From Linnemannia hyalina (Eukaryota; Mortierellomycota; Mortierellomycetes; Mortierellales; Mortierellaceae): a DNA stretch of 64,000 nt. The DNA lies in assembly GCA_019671135.1 (NCBI GenBank), contig JAHRHY010000009.1, positions 496,001-560,000 on the forward strand. The letters run 5' to 3'. Position 1 is the first letter of the stretch; the number at the start of each line of letters is the position of its first letter. Position numbers and translations under genes: made by a program. The notes beneath the pieces are model-generated. The model searched no databases, had not been told where the DNA came from, and was given only the letters and a program-made list of their open reading frames with translations. This document shows, in pieces, positions 22,285 to 31,920 of the stretch.

Positions 22285-22552
22285 CAAGCCAAGTCAAGCC
22301 TCTGACAATTTCATTTATCCCTTCGTCTGTTTTCGACCGCTTTTTGTGGTCGAAATTTATCCCTTCGATTGATTCTGCGAGCAGGGTCCTCTCCATATTT
22401 ACAAAAAAAAACACAGAGAGCACCCACTCCGTCACATAAAAAAAGAGGAACCACCACGAGAGGAACTTCCATATCAACTTATCTTCCTATCACTTTTCCT
22501 TCACTTTTAAACGTCAGCGAGATGGGATAAAATAGTCTCAGAGCCGAGCCTT

Positions 22553-22560
22553 TATAAAAG
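22553..22560 (+). promoter_or_regulatory. TATA-like box before the truncated module
   Basis: TATAAAAG lies 76 bases before the ATG at 22636, so the degenerate gene fragment may still be transcribed. Confidence 0.35.
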
Positions 22561-22635
22561 ATAATGTTGTCAAAACCCTCTGACAATTCAGACGCCTCTC
22601 ACTCAAAATAAGAGAGTTTGAATCAACCTCCATAA

Positions 22636-23167
22636 ATGAAATTGACTCCAAGACAGAAAGGAAAAAAAGAAGAGCGCTGGATCAAGGTGACAGACGGAGT
22701 GAAGAAAGATCAGACCAAGAGATGCGAAGTCAACTTATCATCGATATTTTTTGCGTTGGTGAACGCGCTGAGTTTCCATGAAACGGCGCAGTTCGTTGCA
22801 AAGTCGGCCCGACGTCATATGTCTAACCACGCAACAACATCGACACAGCAGACTTCATCCGGCCCAGAGCGAGCAACCGACGACGATGACGCGGGCATGT
22901 CTACTCACACAACAACATCTACACAGCAGGCTTCATGCAGTCCAAAACGAGCAGTTGACGTCGAGGATGAGGACATCGCCGACACTGCTTCCTCTAAAAA
23001 ACGCCTCCGACCCCTCCAGCTCCGGCTCGTCGACTCTCATTGAAGACATACAGCGATTGCTGGCGACACAACCATCCCAGATTAGGTTCGACGAGAGTCC
23101 TCGTGATCTCCTTATTGCCTCTCCGCCCTCAAGATTCTATCTTGCCTTTCTCTTTATCGTGCTCTAA
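22636..23167 (+). pseudogene. Frameshifted fragment related to the first exon of the XPG-Fanzor gene
   Basis: The first frame gives 135 residues to a stop at 23043. Residues from WIKVTDGV to FFALVNALSFHET align with the first exon of the 27287 gene (WIKEASDG to FFALLNSRAFYGT). That frame ends at about 23040, but homology resumes in another frame as LIEDIQRLLATQPSQIRFD, matching LMTQVQHLLQGGPAQIFLD of the intact gene. The shift falls near an A6 run at about 22997. Homology then ends close to the point where the intact gene has its first intron, and no nuclease domain follows. The middle holds two 26-codon repeats beginning at 22819 and 22897 (both MS.H.TTSTQQ). It is either a decayed copy or a short independent paralogue. 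Confidence 0.6.
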
Positions 23168-23547
23168 AGATAAAAAATCAACGCGTAATGTCTCAACACG
23201 ACGCATCTATTGCCTCTATCGCACTTGATTTTTAGAAATGCTCCGATCTCTCATCACTTTCCCTCAATGCAAGTAATACTTGGATATCGTAGGTAACCAT
23301 AATTTTCTCAGCTCTCATGTTCACTTCCTCTTCCCACTTTCTGCTCTTTCCACCCCTTCAACTGCAACACGGTCAACGATCGCCTCCATTTTGACTATTT
23401 CTATCCACATCCCTTCACGCACCAGTATCACCACCCGAGTCTGTCCCTTCAACGCAATCCCGCTGCTTTAGCCTCACCCCACACATCCTTCACCTCCAGT
23501 CACTGCCACCCCAGCAAAACCATCGCAAGTTACCACCAACACCCACC
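23168..23547. other. Upstream region of the promethin-like gene
   Basis: C/T-rich leader-like sequence directly before the ATG at 23548; no coding signal. Confidence 0.4.
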
Positions 23548-24227
23548 ATGGCCACAACGAACATCGAGCGACAAGTCGACCAAGCCCGAGACGCCACCCA
23601 TGAAGCCCCCCAGATCGTCGCCAGCAAAGCTCAATCGGCACTGGAGTCTGTCAACCAGATGGGTATAGTCCAGCACTATGTTTTCCCTCCCGCGGGATAC
23701 CTCAAGAATCTATATGTCCAAGCTCCCACCAGTGTCAAGATTGGGGTCGTTGGGTTTGGAGTCATATCGGCTTTTCCTCTGGGCTGCTTCATGGGCTTCA
23801 TGGGGTTTGTCACCCTTGGGTCCTTGATCGTTGGAGGGATTGGATTTACCATTGTTGAAGTGAGATATGTTTCTTTGGCACAATGACAATGATGATACGC
23901 ACTCGAATACCAAAGCCTGATAGACGATACTGATCCGAAACTCCCTACCCTAACCCATCATCATCTACATGTGCCAATCATCACCTTATCTCTGTTTAGG
24001 TAGGATTCGCAATTTTCAGCTTGGTTTTCCTGCTCCCAGCCTTGGGAGTCTCGCTGCTGGTTGCCTGCGGCGTCGGGTTGGTCAGCATGGTCGCCTATGT
24101 CGGGTACCTCCTTTCCTGTGCAGTCCTAAGTATGATCTGGGGACATGGTGACTTGCGCAAGGCTAAGCGACAGATCCGGGAGGCCAAGCAGAGGGCTAAT
24201 AAGGGCGGTCGACGAGCCAACGGCTAA
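23548..24227 (+). CDS. Promethin/LDAF1-like lipid-droplet membrane protein
   Basis: Exons 23548-23859 and 24000-24227 join in phase 0 (GTGAGA...TAG) into 179 residues. After a hydrophilic N-terminus of about 60 residues comes one long hydrophobic block with Gly-rich hairpins (residues about 62-152): SAFPLGCFMGFMGFVTLGSL, then VEVGFAIFSLVFLLP and CGVGLVSMVAYVGYL. The order and spacing match human promethin/LDAF1, which has a similar AVPVGFF, ILEGL and CGLGFVSLA pattern, and the fungal Ldo proteins, partners of seipin in lipid-droplet formation at the ER. The C-terminus is basic (RKAKRQIREAKQRANKGGRR). A lipid-droplet role suits an oil-rich fungus, but that link is inference. The last 76 codons form a complete exon with a clear stop. 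Confidence 0.75.
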
Positions 24228-24759
24228 TAGAGTCGAACAATCACGAGGGACCATCGCACTAAACAGTGGAACCAGGCCTCGCTTATGATAAGGACTGATT
24301 GATCTCAACAACCCCTTGAGGAATAGAGAGCGTCTTTTTTTTTTCTTTTTTTCTTGAACTCGCCAACGCTTAAAACACTGTGGACAGTCATTCTTTTTTT
24401 TTTTGGTTTTAGCCTTTTGAAAAGCTCTTTGTCTCCACAAGCATCTTATAATTCTTTCACTTCCTCATAAAGCAAAAAAATAAAAATCAATACACGGACG
24501 CGGTGGTCACAACCAGCCAACGTTCACGGACACCCATCGTTAACTTGCATTATTTTTTATCGAAATGTAGTTCAAAACAAGCCAATCGGTATTGTGGGCG
24601 ATGGGGAAGGGAGGTCGCACGAGTGCGGTTGCAGACAAGCAAGGGTAGCAAATGGCTGAAGGGCCGGGCTCACATAAACCACATCACCAGAAAAAGCAAA
24701 GCAAGACGAAAGGGTCAGCTTTCTGCCATGTAGATATCTCTTCAACGTCTTAGCACGGT
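24228..24759. other. 3' flank of the promethin-like gene
   Basis: AT-rich sequence with several T and A runs (24335-24350, 24393-24402); probably 3' untranslated sequence and spacer. No gene seen. Confidence 0.4.
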
Positions 24760-25204
24760 TCGTATATAACATACCCTTCTGAAGCTGCTGCTTTACGGGC
24801 GCGTAGGTAATCGACTCACCCAATCCTTCCGAAGGCGTGGCCTTGCTCCAATTGACGCCCTTGGTGGAAACGTGCTCGCTGCGCGACCAGGTGGGCATAG
24901 TACTCCGCAGAAACCATAGAGACGGATCGAGTGCATCGAGCATACAGGTAGCATAGTCTGTAGGTTAGAGTCTGGAGACTGTCCGACGTAAATCAGCTCC
25001 CATCGCAGAGAACGTTGTGGAGGGCAGGTCTCGAAGTTCCAATCAGACCCGCTTGCTACTGGAAGTAAAATCAAATTGGAATGGATGAACAATGCCAGTG
25101 TCGACCACAGTTCCGGGCGGACAGTTTCCCGATCGATCGGCCTGGCCCTTCTGCATTAGAAAGAAGAGATTGTGATGGCGCTTCTGGACTACGACAGACG
25201 TGAT

Positions 25205-25209
25205 CTTGG
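25205..25209. repeat. Target-site duplication, left copy
   Basis: CTTGG on the plus strand, repeated exactly at 25618-25622. The two copies bracket the solo LTR; removing the insertion and one copy rejoins the Argonaute frame. Confidence 0.65.
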
Positions 25210-25617
25210 TGCAATGGTCAGACAGGACTTGGAAGAATGTGTATTGCTTTTGTTATATTTTATTATGAAGGAAAAGGAAGGAATACGAAGAGTGTGCAGA
25301 AGTAAGGCAGGGGACAGATGCAAGTGAGTTATTGCAGACTGGGGAACAAGACAGGGGAACAAGGGGTTTATTTATGCTAAGGGCCGAATGAACAGAAGGA
25401 ACCAAGGCGGCGCTTGGACATTGGACGGGGCTTGGATGTTGGACGAGGCTTAGGACATTAGACGGGGCTTGGGGTTTGGGATCTTGAATGCTCAGCTGGC
25501 GAAAGTCACGTGACGAGAAATCAGAAATCCATGGCGCGTTCAACGGAACTAGGACAAAGCCTATTTTCGCATAACCTGGACAACCTGGGGCCTGGCAGCC
25601 TTGGGGCAAAAGTGGCA
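25210..25617. mobile_element. Solo LTR inserted in the Argonaute relic
   Basis: The insertion is 408 bp, begins TG and ends CA on the plus strand (TGCAATGG...AGTGGCA), and is flanked by 5-bp direct repeats CTTGG. These are the hallmarks of a retroviral-type or Ty3/Ty1-type LTR left by recombination. Its minus strand contains CATAAATAAA, which could be a TATA or poly(A) signal, and imperfect short repeats of the form CAAGCCCCGTCCAATGTCC near 25400-25470, as in enhancer repeats of LTR U3 regions. No internal retrotransposon genes are present in the window. Excising it restores continuous PIWI coding sequence from YAPK into ITSVVVQKRHH, which fixes both boundaries. Confidence 0.7.
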
Positions 25618-25622
25618 CTTGG
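25618..25622. repeat. Target-site duplication, right copy
   Basis: CTTGG, identical to 25205-25209; see the solo LTR between them. Confidence 0.65.
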
Positions 25623-26360
25623 GAGCATACATAACTTGTAGCTTCTTGGAAGCCGACCGAATGGCATCCACTTCGACTTGGTGGGCTTGCACAAACTGAC
25701 CCTCCGAGACTCTGTTGAGGTAGAGCAATATCCTCTCAGGCTTTTTCTTGGTCCTGCAAAAGATGCAAAGAATTGCCGAAAGCAGAGGTGAACGGTAGGT
25801 GAGTACGAATTCGTAGCCCATCCAACAGAATTCGACACTTTCTCAGATATACTTACGAAGCAAAGATTGCTCTCGCAAGCTCGACGACCATAAGTGTCCT
25901 CGAGGTCTGCGATAGTTTCTAGGCGCGCTCCTTGGGTTCGGATAGAGGTTGCATACTTGGCGTCGCGGGACGAAGGATGGTTAGTAATGACTAGGGCGGG
26001 CAGAATACGCCCGCTCAGTGCGCCCATCACGTTTGAGCAGCACAATCTGGTTAATGATGGTGACATCTTGATGGTGGATGTTGATGTTGGGGAGTGTTTC
26101 GAGCTCAAAGAAATTTGCGGACGTTGCAGACTTGGCCTAGATTGGCGTCGTGACGAGTTCAGTCAGCTTGATAAAGGCGGATATGGTTGACGCTATTGTT
26201 CCAGGAGAGTGTAGAGTGATGAGTGTGCAAATGTGTGGTTGACTTAAGGTTCGTTATTTGTTTACTGTGTGTACTTTTGTATATGGGCGAGAGATAATAG
26301 GGGCTCAAAGGGCCAACAAGAGAAGCAGAGATACAATGAGAGAGGCAAAACGAGAATATG

Positions 26361-26915
26361 GTTTGCGATGTTGACCATCACCCAAGGTACGAATAAAACA
26401 GGCCTTTTTTTTTGTTTTTTTTGAAGCAAAACCATAGCCCTGCCATTTCCACAATAAACTCTTGGGTTATTGTTTTGGTGACTTCATGCTGCATGGTGTG
26501 GAAACAAAGAGAGAGAGAGAGAGGCAAAAGGAAAAAAGAAAGGGACAATGAGAGAACAAAAGGTGTTTGTGATGGTGACCATCATCCACGGTATGCATGA
26601 AGCAGGTTATTGTGGAAATGGTTTCTTGCTGTATGATATGGAAACAAAGAGGGAGAGAGAGAGAGGCGAAAGGAAAAAAGAAAGGGACAATGAGAGAACC
26701 AAAAAGAGACATGAAAGAGACATGAAAGAGATATGAAAGAGACAAAAGGTGTTTGTGATGGTGACCATCATCCACGGTATGCATGAAGCAGGTTATTGTG
26801 GAAACGGTTTCTTGCTGTATGATATGGATCCACGGTATGCATGAAGCAAGTTATCGTGGAAATGTCAGGTTATTTTTGGGCTTTTATTTTGGCGATTTGT
26901 TCCTGAATGGTATAG
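26361..26915. repeat. Diverged tandem repeat array left of the XPG-Fanzor gene
   Basis: Four related units start near 26361, 26563, 26748 and 26828. The best-kept part is GTTTGTGATGGTGACCATCA followed by CCACGGTATGCATGAAGCAG; most units continue with a TTATTGTGGAAAYGG box and, in the first two, a purine tract of GA repeats. The first unit also has that box in inverted orientation (CCATTTCCACAATAA, 26443-26457; direct copy at 26607-26621). Unit length varies from about 80 to 200 bp. The array may be a decayed terminus or an expanded satellite; its origin is unclear. Confidence 0.6.
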
Positions 26916-26991
26916 ATTATATCGCTTGTGTGTGTTGAGTGATAGTGGTCTCGACATGTAAGCCTTTGTCCTTTCCACTGCCCACTTTTCC

Positions 26992-26999
26992 TATAAAAT
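26992..26999 (+). promoter_or_regulatory. TATA box of the XPG-Fanzor gene
   Basis: TATAAAAT followed by a C/T-rich leader, 288 bases before the ATG at 27287. This is the same promoter style as host genes in this window. Confidence 0.45.
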
Positions 27000-27286
27000 C
27001 CCGCTTCCATTTTCCTTCTTCCCTCTTTCTTTCTTCCTCTCTAACCACACTCTCCTCAGCACACCTCACATCTCACACTCTCCTCCACATCCACCTATTC
27101 CTCCACATCCACCTACATACTACTTTACATATATCTTCGCCACACCCTTTCGAAGCAACCCACAACAGCCATTCTGTAAGGCCGATGCTGGATGTGATTG
27201 CGAACCGTACTCATTATACCCTTTCACAACTTATCAAGCAAGAAGACTCACACTAGCTCTCACACTTTTCTTAACATAGTTCAAGA

Positions 27287-30200
27287 ATGGGAATCAGTGT
27301 CCTTCCTTCATGGATCAAGGAGGCCTCCGACGGAACCGAGGAAGATCTCACCCAAAAAACATGCCATGTGGACTTTCCGGCGATGTTTTTCGCCCTGTTG
27401 AACTCGCGTGCATTTTACGGAACCGTCAGCATCGAAGCCAGGCAGGCCCGACTGCACTACTCACTAAAAACAACTGTCGCTACCAACGTACCAGGCGAAC
27501 AAAAACATCCACATTCGCCATCTGGGTCTGAGGGGACCGAGTCGGGGAGTCCATCCATCAAACATGCTCGCCTCACATTGGGAGCTCCCTCAGGCACAAG
27601 TACATCGACCGGTCCTGCGTTTGTTGCGATCCCTCCTGGCTCGGTTCCGACAAACCTTATGACACAGGTCCAACATCTACTGCAAGGAGGACCAGCTCAG
27701 ATCTTTCTCGACAGCAATGGTACTCTCACAACAACACGTACCGAAAACAAAGGCATTGTAAGTACATTCGATTTTCAAATACAACCGGCAAAGACAAAGC
27801 TGCTGTAAGAAATATACCTAATACTATCTCATCGCTTTGTGTTTTCAATAGGACTATGGCCACATAGGCCAGGTTATTCACGACATCCTCATGAAAAAAG
27901 TCTCACAGGGGCGCACAACAATCCATGCCGACGGTCCCCGTTCGGTCGAGAAAGAGCACGCCCATCAGAAACGGGACCGTGATCTAACAACGCGGATGAG
28001 AAAACTCATGGAGGACTACGACGAAGACAAGATCAAAGGGACGAAACGGCTATACCGGCGTCTAAAGTCTGTTTATCGGGCACCACCCGATGCCGCGAGA
28101 CAAGTGCTGGATGCTCTTCAGAATCTGGGGTGGACAATATGTCGCTGCCCCCACCAAGCCGACTGCTGTATTGCCCGTTGTCTCAATAATGCCGTCAAGC
28201 CGGAGGATGTACGAATCATCACCAAAGACTCTGACCTGTTGGTCTATGAGGCCTCTACATCGATCACTATTCCTGTCGGCAGTCAGTGGAAAACATTCCA
28301 GAAGCAGGACCTTATGGATCGACACCAGCTCCCCACTCCAGCCCACCTTCTTCTTCTTGGTATTTTAACAACAAACGACTATACCGACGGCGTTCCTTAC
28401 TATGGCTTGGTGTCGAACGCTGACATTGTTCGGACGTTTACATTGGACGGACTCGACGGATTGAGCGACCAGGAGCGACTTGGACAATTCAAACACCACG
28501 TCATTCAGTACTTGAAGATTGTATACGACAGCGCCCACAAGCTCCAGGAGATCGCAGAGGAGTCCTACCTCCAATATGGGAAACACATGCAACTGTATAA
28601 GAAACACGCTAAAAGGTCCTTGAACAGGGTCGGGATAACTCAGTACCAGAAGAACGTAAAAGACAGCCAGTTCGATCATGCCCTTCAGGCGTTCGTGATG
28701 TGCACCGAGCATCCTTTACCTATGGGTGGGACCGAAACGACTTCCAGCACACCCGATATCCACAGCCTTGTCACGACTATCATTCAGGAAGTTGAGATGA
28801 AAAAGGCGAAGACCAACTGGGAGCGTTTCTCAAGGAGCCAAACATCACATACAGGACCATCAGCGCCCACACCTATTATCGACCAAGCACCTCCACTCTA
28901 CAAAAAGAGTAGAAAACAAGAAATGCGCCATGGCTCACGCGCCCGGTCAAGGAGAAGGCAGAAATGGCAGAGGACAAAGTAAGTACTTTTTAGCGTCATC
29001 TTCAGTTATATCCAGCCACTTGTATTGACTTCTATTGCTTCTGTACTAATATTATTCTTCATAACATTGGCGCGTTTATTTCTAGATTCCGATCCCGGAC
29101 GGATCAAGCAGATCGATACGTACCCCAAACGGTCAACCTTGAGAACGCCAGCCCCGTCGAGGACGTAGAATTGTCTGGTCTGAAACCATCAACCCCTCGA
29201 CCATACAAGCCAAAGGATCCCGCTACCACCAACGAACAAGCTGCCACTGCCCCTGTAGCCAAGAAAAAGAAGAAGAAGAAGCATCTTGACTATCACCAGG
29301 ACAGGCCTGGTTATGCTGCTCTGAAGAAGTCATTCAAGTCTGTTTTCGCCACTGTCACACTTACCACTGGATCAGTCAAGGGGTGCCTGAAACGAGCTAC
29401 CGATCTCACCCCGGCGAACGTCGACATGGTTGCTCAGAGACTTGATATGGCTGTGTCTATCGTCAATACTGCCAAGCATTTTGTCTACAAGATGCTCGAA
29501 ATGCGGATCCTTGGAGAGCTACTCTCTAGTTCGCCGCCGACGTCCTTTCTGGAGGATATTCTGGATTCAGACTGGGCAGAGATTGTTATTGGGAATCTGT
29601 TGTCGTTTGTTCTCCGAGATTCGACAAAAGCACTAGGACCTACAGCCAACAAGCCAAAGTCGAAGGAAGCACAGGCGGAGGCAGTGTCGATTTTTGCGGC
29701 CTTCAAGGGGTTCCATCCGGGATTCAAGGCTGTTAACCCATCCAGCATACCCCTCGGTGTTGTCATCGATGATCTGGCGCCCAAGATCTGTTTGGCTATG
29801 AAGTTGCATTACAAGAAGCTCCCACAGACTATACGCACAAAGGTACTAATCGCCCAATTCGTTGATGAAGCGCCATTGATAATTGGAGAGAGTGTATTGC
29901 ATATTCTAATACTGTGCCTTTTTTTCTTTTTGCAATAAAATAGATGGAGAAGCTGGAGTTCGATCCCGCCCTACTTCCAAAAGTCGAACAGGAGGATGAA
30001 GACAAACCTGGTGATGACGGCACTACTCTAGACGATGACGGTACTATTCTAGACGATGATGCCGATGATGAGAACCCCAGGAAAAAGTCGAAAAAAATTG
30101 TCTATCAGCCTGGACACATCCGATCATGCTGGAACTATCTCATGGCACTTCCAGCGGCAAACCGACCACGTTTCTGTACCCAGTCCAAGATGGCAGACAG

Positions 30201-31779
30201 CTTTATCGACATTAGGGAGGAGGGACTGATGCGTATCCTTTGGGGAAGAGATGCAGGTCAAGTCGGATTGATTTGGAGCGGCAGCCCTCATAGCCACGAC
30301 TGGGCCAACCTACAAGTCAATACGTCATTCGGGAACCTCATCAAGATGCTTTTCATTGGAGATCGAAATACGGTTCGGCTCGCAAACAAACAACAAACAA
30401 CATACGGGAAACGAAGTGCTACAATGAGTGAACTCAAGGCTGCCCACCCCACCATCTATGACCAAGGACCACTTGCACGACACCTGACAGATCGAATTAA
30501 CTATTACCGAACCCGACACAATGCATCCATCTCGGCCGGATCGTCGTCATCGTCTTCAGCATCTGCAGTGCCGCCGCCTTCCAACCCCCCACTATTGCCG
30601 ACCCCTCCTCACATCCAAGGCGCACAGTCTTCCTTTCGGTATGCATTGAACAATTTCATCCGCACGGACGGCCATCAGCTGCAACTTTTGGCCTATGACC
30701 TCACCAAGAGTCGGCAGGCGCCGGGTCGTAAGGAGTTTCTACGACGTATCGAGAACCAGTACCCAACCCGACAGTCGATAATTGAAGCATTCGGTCAAGA
30801 CTTGGAGTCGGTGGCGGTGATTGGCATCGATCCAGGCGAAGTCGTGAGCGGTGCGTTCTGTGTGCGTCTCGATGACAAAACTGTGGTCAACTTGTTGGTA
30901 AAGCGCGCATCACTGTATCAGCCAACACTCGCCTTCAGAGCATGGGAACAGGAATGGAGGCGACAACACCCAGCAGCCGGTCCCGCAGATAATGTCGACG
31001 CGAGCCTTTGGACGAGGAAGACGGATGACAAGAACAGGGCAACTTTTCTACCTTCGATGCATGATCTTGAGAATGCGCTCCATTCAACAAAATACGACTC
31101 AGAGGATGCCCTCAAATCCGCGCAACGGCAGTATTTCGAGTTGGAACCGATCATTCATGGATTCTACTCATCGTCGGACTGGAAGAAGGCCGTATACCAA
31201 CATAGAATGGCAAAGTTGTCAGAGATGGACATGGCGGTGGCAGGCGTGCTCCGACTTGTGAAAGAAGCATTGAAGAGTAACCCAATGGGAGGGCGTAGGG
31301 TCCTCTTCGCGTTGGGAAACGCGACTTTTCGGACAGGGTTCAACCTTACATCGGTCCACACGACGTTCTTGCGCAGACTACAGCAGAAGGTAATAATGAG
31401 AATGGAGAGAGTAGAAAGAAGATGTACGGGTGGTCGTATCTACTAGTATCGTATGTCCCTTCAATACCATGGCGATCTGGATACACAAGTATATTAATTC
31501 ATTTGTCCTTTTTAAAATTGATAGAGCTTGGCCCTTGGGTACAAGGTAGCGTTAGTGGATGAATATCTTACATCTACAATGTGCCCAACCTGCGTTTCCA
31601 TGGGTGAGACGACAAGACTTGCTAAGCCCTCGATGAGAACCTGTGCGTGTGTGAAATGCAGGCGGTGGATTCACCGAGACTTGGTGGGTGCGCACAACAT
31701 TGCTATCATCGGCAAGCATTACCTTAAGCATCTCGGACGCCCCCCTTCCCTTGCAAGACCGTCGCCGCAAAGCTCATAA
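27287..31779 (+). CDS. XPG/FEN1-like nuclease fused to a Fanzor (TnpB-like) RuvC nuclease
   Basis: Exons 27287-27757, 27852-28978, 29086-29842, 29944-31389 and 31525-31779 join in phase into 1351 residues. Residues 1-370 match the XPG/FEN1 PIN fold: MGISVLPSWIKEAS, Asp29 (HVDFPAMFFALL), Asp184 (IHADGPRS), HQADCCIA with Asp261, TKDSDLL with Asp283 and Asp285, and NDYTDG with Asp333. The first Glu of the usual EAEA motif is Gln259. A basic linker and a helical, Lys-rich region follow. The C-terminus is a Fanzor/TnpB catalytic core: GIDPGE (Asp1081), VDEYLTS with Glu1280, a zinc ribbon (CPTC...CVKC) and HRDLVGAHNI (Asp1319). The canonical RuvC-II glutamate position appears lost (ALGNATF), while Glu1280 fits the relocated glutamate described for Fanzors. 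Exon 4 begins with ATG, so a separate 566-residue Fanzor transcript is an alternative. Confidence 0.8.
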
Positions 31780-31782
31780 CCT

Positions 31783-31920
31783 CTATAGATTGAAACTATA
31801 GTTTATTTATCCTAGTCTGTCAATGACTAATGACGGACGAAGGGATATCCAAAAAAACAAACAAAAAAACCGGACGCGTCTCGATTCTACGTGCAGTCAC
31901 GTACGACTGGTTAGCTTAAC
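31783..31920 (+). other. Stem-loop cluster after the Fanzor stop, candidate guide-RNA region
   Basis: Four short inverted repeats follow the stop codon at 31777-31779: CTATAG/CTATAG (31783-31801, 7-nt loop); GTCTGTCA/TGACGGAC (31815-31838, 8-nt loop, one G-U pair); TACGTG/CACGTA (31888-31903, 4-nt loop); GTTA/TAAC (31910-31920). TnpB and Fanzor elements usually encode their guide RNA at or beyond the 3' end of the nuclease gene, so this is the expected place. Expression and the element end are not shown by sequence. Confidence 0.35.

Follow-up and report, generated by a model that had tools for sequence, protein, structure and literature searches.

The stretch of DNA considered here, hereafter the window, comprises 64,000 nucleotides of the soil fungus Linnemannia hyalina (contig JAHRHY010000009.1; C50:496001-560000 of the searched genome of 51.5 Mb in 50 contigs). 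On its plus strand, at 27287-31779, it carries a gene for which the joining of a predicted nuclease of the XPG/FEN1 type to a Fanzor is supported, and which lies in a mobile element of the family here called A. Five exons joined at GT-AG borders give 1351 codons with no internal stop, which is the continuous, intron-bearing frame that a preliminary description had read at this place; the XPG and Fanzor residues named there are all correctly numbered, including six of the seven ligands of the XPG site. Exon 1 (27287..27757) opens the XPG domain with MGISVLPSWIK and contains D29. Exon 2 (27852..28978) carries the remaining XPG domain, with D184, K191, R198, Q259, D261, D283, D285, and D333, and basic linker. 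The end of the linker and an N-terminal Fanzor part, presumably WED/REC-like, are found in exon 3 (29086..29842), the Fanzor middle part and RuvC, with D1081 within GIDPGE, in exon 4 (29944..31389), and the displaced Glu E1280, a C4 zinc ribbon, D1319 of HRD, and the stop codon in exon 5 (31525..31779), all on the plus strand. At the domain level, the XPG/FEN/EXO1-like domain takes residues 1-485 (27287..28835, intron 1 inside), the basic linker about 110 residues, and the Fanzor1 domain residues ~596-1351 (29273..31776, introns 3 and 4 inside), its start being approximate. The catalytic sites had been described as lying about 750 residues apart, a distance that is not a gap, the Fanzor part beginning already around residue 596. 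The public model of this gene, KI688_001067 (P0001), begins only at residue 125, so that 124 N-terminal residues are missing, as is the zinc-ribbon exon.

The gene can be compared among families A, B, C, and F, the letters being identity bands assigned in this analysis ("E" is a rearranged B). Spliced models stay open for 1351 (A), 1397 (B), 1459 (C), and 1334 (F) residues, with ~25-60% identity to the window protein, varying by exon. All four introns stand at common alignment columns (219 or 220, 682, 971, and 1487), with phases 0, 2, 0, and 0 in each of the four families. In the five family pairs compared, both halves show far less non-synonymous than synonymous change, although the synonymous sites are saturated. 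This identity of the introns, a profile search against solved structures, a structure model, and annotated homologues with both domains, found in other genera as well, support a single fused gene as it had been proposed.

The N-terminal half is predicted to be a 5' nuclease of the EXO1/FEN1 kind. Among the XPG acidic metal ligands, D29, D184, D261, D283, D285, and D333 are located in the window protein and invariant in families A, B, C, and F; the seventh position is Gln259 there and Glu in the distant loci L076, L078, and L079, as read by eye. K191 and R198 are likewise invariant in the four families and stand 7 and 14 residues after the second Asp, like the active-site pair K93 and R100 of FEN1. 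The profile search against solved structures placed members of the XPG/FEN1/EXO1 family in the top 13 of 18 matches (best expectation value, E, 8.6e-5) and aligned the NDYxxGVP motif with the H3TH stretch of XPG. The structure model matches the XPG/FEN1/EXO1 catalytic-core fold over ~281 residues at ~15% identity; its fold is closest to EXO1 (VIA-align), the best-matching EXO1 crystal structures show 5'-recessed DNA ends, and the listed top structural relatives are DNA-acting enzymes. The check with Pfam profiles that had been suggested was clear for the Fanzor half only, where the TNB profile PF07282 matches above its cut-off (E 1.7e-10), but the best match of the XPG half, XPG_I_2, remains under the cut-off (E 0.092). 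At the distant fused locus L076 the XPG_I match lies just under the cut-off (E 8.1e-5).

The C-terminal half is likely an RNA-guided DNA cutter, judging from its residues. Its landmarks are GIDPGE (D1081), VDEYLTS (E1280), HRD (D1319), and a C4 zinc ribbon made of C1287, C1290, C1309, and C1312, with C1307 also present; D1081-P-G and the displaced E1280 are conserved in families A, B, C, and F. DPG and the displaced Glu are described as signatures of a Fanzor-type RuvC (PMC10711439), and the Fanzor/TnpB motif as D-X(125,275)-[TS][TS]XX-C4-X(5,50)-RD (PMC3627910). A regular expression for this motif matches the window protein and none of 2000 shuffles; its first fit begins at D1027, and D1081, 202 residues before T1283, fits too. 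NCBIfam matches were all under the cut-off.

The gene belongs to a recently multiplied transposable element. Element A, ~9.5 kb, extends over 22315..31847 (plus strand), where near-identical copies on other contigs end. It is bounded by a left terminal inverted repeat at 22315..22330 (plus strand) and a right one at 31832..31847 (minus strand), each given with its flanking TA. The left end reads T-TA-TCCCTTCGTCTG and the right end GACGGACGAAGGGA-TA, the inverted-repeat ends being TATCCCTTCGTCTG and GACGGACGAAGGGATA. A query of 481 residues from exon 4 found 65 genomic places, 10 of them at 100% identity (rounded), and nine fetched copies show 99.4-99.8% DNA identity to the window across the gene. 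Seven of them lose this identity at window position 31847, whereas the other two run on to 31850 and 31856 by chance match of the flanks; the left end, at 22313-22315, is common to seven other genomic places. The full frame of 1351 codons is intact in all ten copies (the window and L009-L017), without coding gaps, and their comparison, from which the stop-bearing L018 and a truncated copy at C22:138359 were left out, gives 22 synonymous and 24 non-synonymous simple variable codons. A domesticated host gene was rejected because of the multiple copies and inverted ends. The introns and leader had been taken as a sign of long residence in the fungal genome, which is wrong for the window copy since the gene sits in a recently multiplied element.

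Throughout the genome, PF07282 gives 97 matches, 90 of them above the cut-off. An XPG match, with families A, F, and L076 as queries, is found within 5.5 kb upstream on the same strand for 63 of the 97 (62 of the 90 above the cut-off), compared with one on the opposite strand and a mean of 0.58 (maximum 3) in 200 random shifts. This dispels the doubt, raised at the outset, whether homologues carry both domains together, and makes the XPG-Fanzor fusion the commonest Fanzor architecture detectable in this genome. A first pairing count had left 39 TNB matches unpaired, of which two were read: L078 has upstream XPG motifs and L077 is a bare last exon. In that count 10 of 68 XPG pieces had no downstream TNB match, two of the ten being one split match. 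A second, distant XPG-Fanzor clade (L076, L079, and 25 XPG pieces) has no nearby PiggyBac matches, and in L076 the RuvC-I motif reads LTLDGGQ instead of GIDPGE.

Outside this genome, a length-restricted protein search returned 14 proteins from Linnemannia, Entomortierella, Dissophora, and Podila, all Mortierellaceae. Matches to the window protein begin at its residue 1 and cover 97-100% of it in P0002, P0003, and P0008; in P0007 and P0009 they are split in two, running from residue 1 into the Fanzor part, and the remaining proteins match in part. P0003 and P0007 come from Entomortierella parvispora. The survey of relatives for the same domain order, which the preliminary description had advised, thus found it in the annotated proteins P0002 and P0008, which span both domains, XPG active-site stretch included. 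Two further protein searches gave one new protein (A1 query) and, with the XPG half of P0008, only itself; all three scored no more than ~8,000 candidates, a scope that leaves room for homologues outside Mortierellaceae. In virus contigs, the Fanzor alignment A4 gave 70 pattern matches, none confirmed.

Relatives of element A also harbor a transposase. A PF13843 (PiggyBac) match can be found within 6 kb upstream, on the same strand, in all loci of families B (12/12), C (1/1), D (1/1), and F (9/9) and in 4/7 of G, amounting to 23/23 in B, C, D, and F together and to 27 of 67 XPG pieces overall, with none of the 25 distant XPG pieces. Conversely, an XPG match follows 27 of 38 merged PiggyBac loci, and several F-type transposase frames are free of stops. 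The element ends begin TCCC inside TA, and those of family A resemble the ends of the PiggyBac-bearing family C (TATCCCTTCGTTTG), so that transposition of family A in trans by a PiggyBac-type transposase would be the simplest reading. The NCBI models P0005/P0006, of family B, splice a PiggyBac fragment onto XPG; the triple fusion PiggyBac-XPG-Fanzor that they imply was set aside since family B has its own exon-1 start, MGITNLTGWIK, which they skip.

At the right end, a predicted omega-RNA scaffold (31783..31847, plus strand) consists of two hairpins, 31783-31801 and 31808-31847, the second ending at the flanking TA, and the flank directly past it (31848..31867, plus strand) would be the guide if the Fanzor/TnpB layout holds. 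Two hairpins, with the second ending in this manner, are predicted between stop codon and right end in A, B, C, and F, with fold z-scores of -3.7 (A), -0.9 (B, weak), -1.9 (C), and -2.7 (F). The first stem is common to A and B and the outermost bases of the second, belonging to the terminal repeat, to all four families; the other stem sequences differ, and the right flanks vary from copy to copy. Rfam gave no match for this RNA. TnpB and Fanzor right-end RNAs are reported to reach beyond the transposon boundary (PMC10711439), and the guide RNAs of SpuFz1 and PpFz1 to have two stem loops in total, a single one following SL1 ahead of the guide (PMC11423790).

The flanks were compared in 28 copies, meaning those with both flanks fetched and ends fitting a pattern that itself includes TA (A 7/12, B 11/12, C 1/1, D 1/1, F 8/9; none of G or the distant loci); the twelfth B copy was left out, the pattern being unmatched in the fetched right piece. 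A T precedes the left TA in 19/20 A-D copies and 2/8 F copies, and the mirror A follows the right TA in 5/20 and 5/8, respectively; the only A-D copy without the T (L031) has an altered terminus. This one-sided T resembles the CA preceding the left repeat of SpuFz1, whose target-adjacent motif (TAM) is CATA (PMC10432273). For A-D, seven paralogous places were found and two fetched, the comparison of the D copy with L086 being unreadable. The sole readable empty site has A, not T, before TA, plus 13 extra bases, for which reason the left-end T may belong to the element itself. Neither the TTA TAM at which this T hints, and against which the site argues, nor a clean target-site duplication is established.

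Set against known systems, the window protein shares with the Fanzor1 proteins SpuFz1, GtFz1, and PpFz1 (PMC10432273; PMC11423790) the TNB/zinc ribbon, DPG, displaced Glu, and RD motifs, and its gene lies at the right end of an element with terminal inverted repeats, with two predicted right-end hairpins before the guide as in SpuFz1 and PpFz1. Most Fz1 proteins have 600-700 residues (PMC11423790); unlike them, the window protein adds an N-terminal XPG domain of 485 residues and the linker. Its XPG half resembles the Rad2 family (EXO1/FEN1/XPG) in fold, six of seven acidic ligands, the Lys/Arg pair, and NDYxxGVP, but is fused to a Fanzor, borne on a transposon, only ~15% identical, and has Gln for the first Glu of the ExE pair in this clade. 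Bao and Jurka (2013, PMC3627910) describe the capture of Fanzor1 by Mariner, Helitron, IS4-like, Sola2, and MuDr-like transposons. The present elements are similar in that the Fanzor gene comes second in a cut-and-paste element and that transposase and Fanzor halves are swapped as modules, whereas a PiggyBac host and an XPG fusion are not among the cases described in the available text of that paper. It does mention PiggyBac elements with a DEDDh nuclease, which is different from XPG. With the PiggyBac superfamily the window element has in common the PF13843 matches upstream in its relatives and the TCCC ends inside TA; it differs in having no transposase and a TA flank in place of TTAA. Two man-made fusions are comparable in design: a human EXO1-based Cas9 "exonuclease editor," which raises homology-directed repair and lowers end joining (PMC11107001), and a T5exo-Cas12a fusion (PMC8945719), both tethering a 5' nuclease to an RNA-guided one to steer repair, unlike the natural and conserved fusion found here. 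Literature on Fanzor in relation to fungi, Mortierella, flap endonucleases, PiggyBac, and exonuclease fusions contained no XPG-Fanzor fusion among the matches listed, subscription papers, supplements, and other preprints lying outside this scope, and the words XPG and Mortierella are absent from the main texts, as far as available, of PMC3627910, PMC10432273, PMC10711439, and PMC11423790.

It can be proposed that the fusion would probably help the jumping gene to be copied back after a cut. The functions suggested in the preliminary description, namely the processing of ends or help in copying the element, would be compatible with the observations. In the specific form that we favor, and hold to be evenly balanced between right and wrong, the predicted single protein would re-cut the emptied site with the right-end guide RNA and chew back the 5' ends, and repair would copy the element into the gap. 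A PiggyBac-type transposase, acting in trans for family A, would excise the element and the donor site would be rejoined; piggyBac-type excision is known to be precise. The right-end RNA, with the right flank as guide, would then direct the Fanzor to exactly that rejoined site. Its cut would leave 3' overhangs, as do those of the fungal Fanzor SpuFz1 (PMC10432273), that is, 5'-recessed ends, the class of substrate in the EXO1 crystal structures that fit the XPG model best. The fused domain would then resect these ends and so favor homologous repair off the sister copy, by which a cut-and-paste element may gain a copy. Guided re-cutting with built-in resection would be the simplest account of the EXO1-like fold, the overhangs of SpuFz1, and the repair effect of EXO1-Cas9. 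Rather more tentative, and in our view doubtful as a whole, is the wider picture of a cut-and-paste transposon turned into a copying element by fusing its guided nuclease to a resection nuclease of its own, this enzyme being the prevailing Fanzor form of Mortierellaceae and a natural counterpart of Cas9-EXO1.

Several observations weigh against the proposal of re-cutting and resection. No PF13843 match lies upstream in any of the 12 family-A loci, window included, and TA, not the TTAA of piggyBac, flanks both ends of the 28 copies compared; with such flanks the element may belong to a class other than PiggyBac. Four insertions were set beside empty sites in paralogues: relative to a clean TA duplication, three lack 2, 2, and 13 bases, and the fourth is uninterpretable. 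A 97%-identical family-A copy, L018 (C22:102459), carries a stop in exon 4, and 34 of the 97 TNB matches have no upstream XPG match and may be XPG-free Fanzors, fragments, or diverged cases. One acidic ligand of the XPG site is replaced by Gln259 in families A, B, C, and F, and the Entomortierella models P0003 and P0007 lack the stretch carrying D261, D283, and D285, which may be a real deletion or a mis-spliced model. Structure prediction, recommended by the preliminary description as a check, matched an EXO1-type fold for the XPG half, but the model of the Fanzor half, whose whole fold would comprise REC, WED, RuvC, and TNB, is poor (mean predicted local distance difference test score 52.6; best Foldseek E 5.9e-3), and a Fanzor-alignment profile search of solved structures gave only XPG (6vbh) and no Fanzor chain.

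Two main rivals grant the fusion and assign the XPG domain another task. It may be a flap nuclease trimming, for ligation, the flaps left by transposase joining or R-loops, with no bias toward homologous repair. The bases missing at the insertions may, however, be ordinary divergence of paralogues that are ~79-88% identical, and the XPG domain goes with the Fanzor rather than with PiggyBac, the 25 distant pieces having no PiggyBac match upstream. Gaps at transposon insertions are moreover normally repaired by host enzymes, and a private copy is not obviously needed; we consider this reading unlikely. Somewhat lower still stands that of a catalytically dead reader of DNA structure, which would bind 5' ends or junctions through its Gln259 form and position the Fanzor. 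It would fit the Gln at the E158 place in four of four families and the two Entomortierella gene models without three active-site Asp, but the other six acidic ligands and the Lys/Arg pair, invariant in A, B, C, and F, would be needless for pure binding, and L076, L078, and L079 keep the Glu.

Far less probable is a role in RNA processing, in which the domain would trim the 5' part of a transcript to yield the short guide RNA at the right end. RNAs from this end of TnpB and Fanzor elements do pass the transposon boundary (PMC10711439), and excision from a longer transcript might apply here; yet guide RNAs are also described for Fanzors of ordinary size, SpuFz1 for example (PMC10432273), and the best structural relatives listed act on DNA. 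That two adjoining genes, one XPG-like and one Fanzor, were seemingly fused by a wrong splice model has next to no probability, and was rejected on the conserved intron positions and the fused homologues. An in-frame ATG does form the first codon of exon 4 (29944), and P0001 starts at residue 125 with the last exon missing. Nevertheless, exon 3 belongs to the Fanzor part as much as exon 4 does, and the intron that bridges XPG linker and Fanzor is intron 2 (phase 2), at the same column in all four families. The annotated P0002 and P0008 run continuously through both domains with the XPG active-site stretch, and an XPG match lies within 5.5 kb upstream of 63 of the 97 TNB matches.

The biological role of Fanzor was stated to be unknown in 2023 (PMC10432273), and a conserved fusion to a repair-type 5' nuclease would be a direct clue that it concerns the control of events after the cut. 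Because each half can be mutated separately, the fusion opens the cut-and-copy hypothesis to testing. An active protein would also be a single-chain guided nuclease that evolved in nature and processes ends by itself, which would be of interest for homology-directed editing.

With regard to the make-up of the elements, a 5' fragment of a family-B XPG-Fanzor gene lies near the left end of element A (22678..23097, plus strand; 88% identity by DNA comparison), and element A is therefore itself composite. Three of the nine copies (L015-L017; with L037-L039) are left-truncated and adjoin the apparent right end of another element (GACGGAGGAAGGGATA). Locus L060/L061 (C4:122600-131400) combines a family-C-type left end with an XPG-Fanzor and right end of family-F type, with a stop-free PiggyBac frame between them, which is module swapping as described for Mariner and Sola2 Fanzor elements. 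A further small repeat of ~410 bp in element A (25210-25618) recurs at about 12 other genomic places with 77-87% identity.

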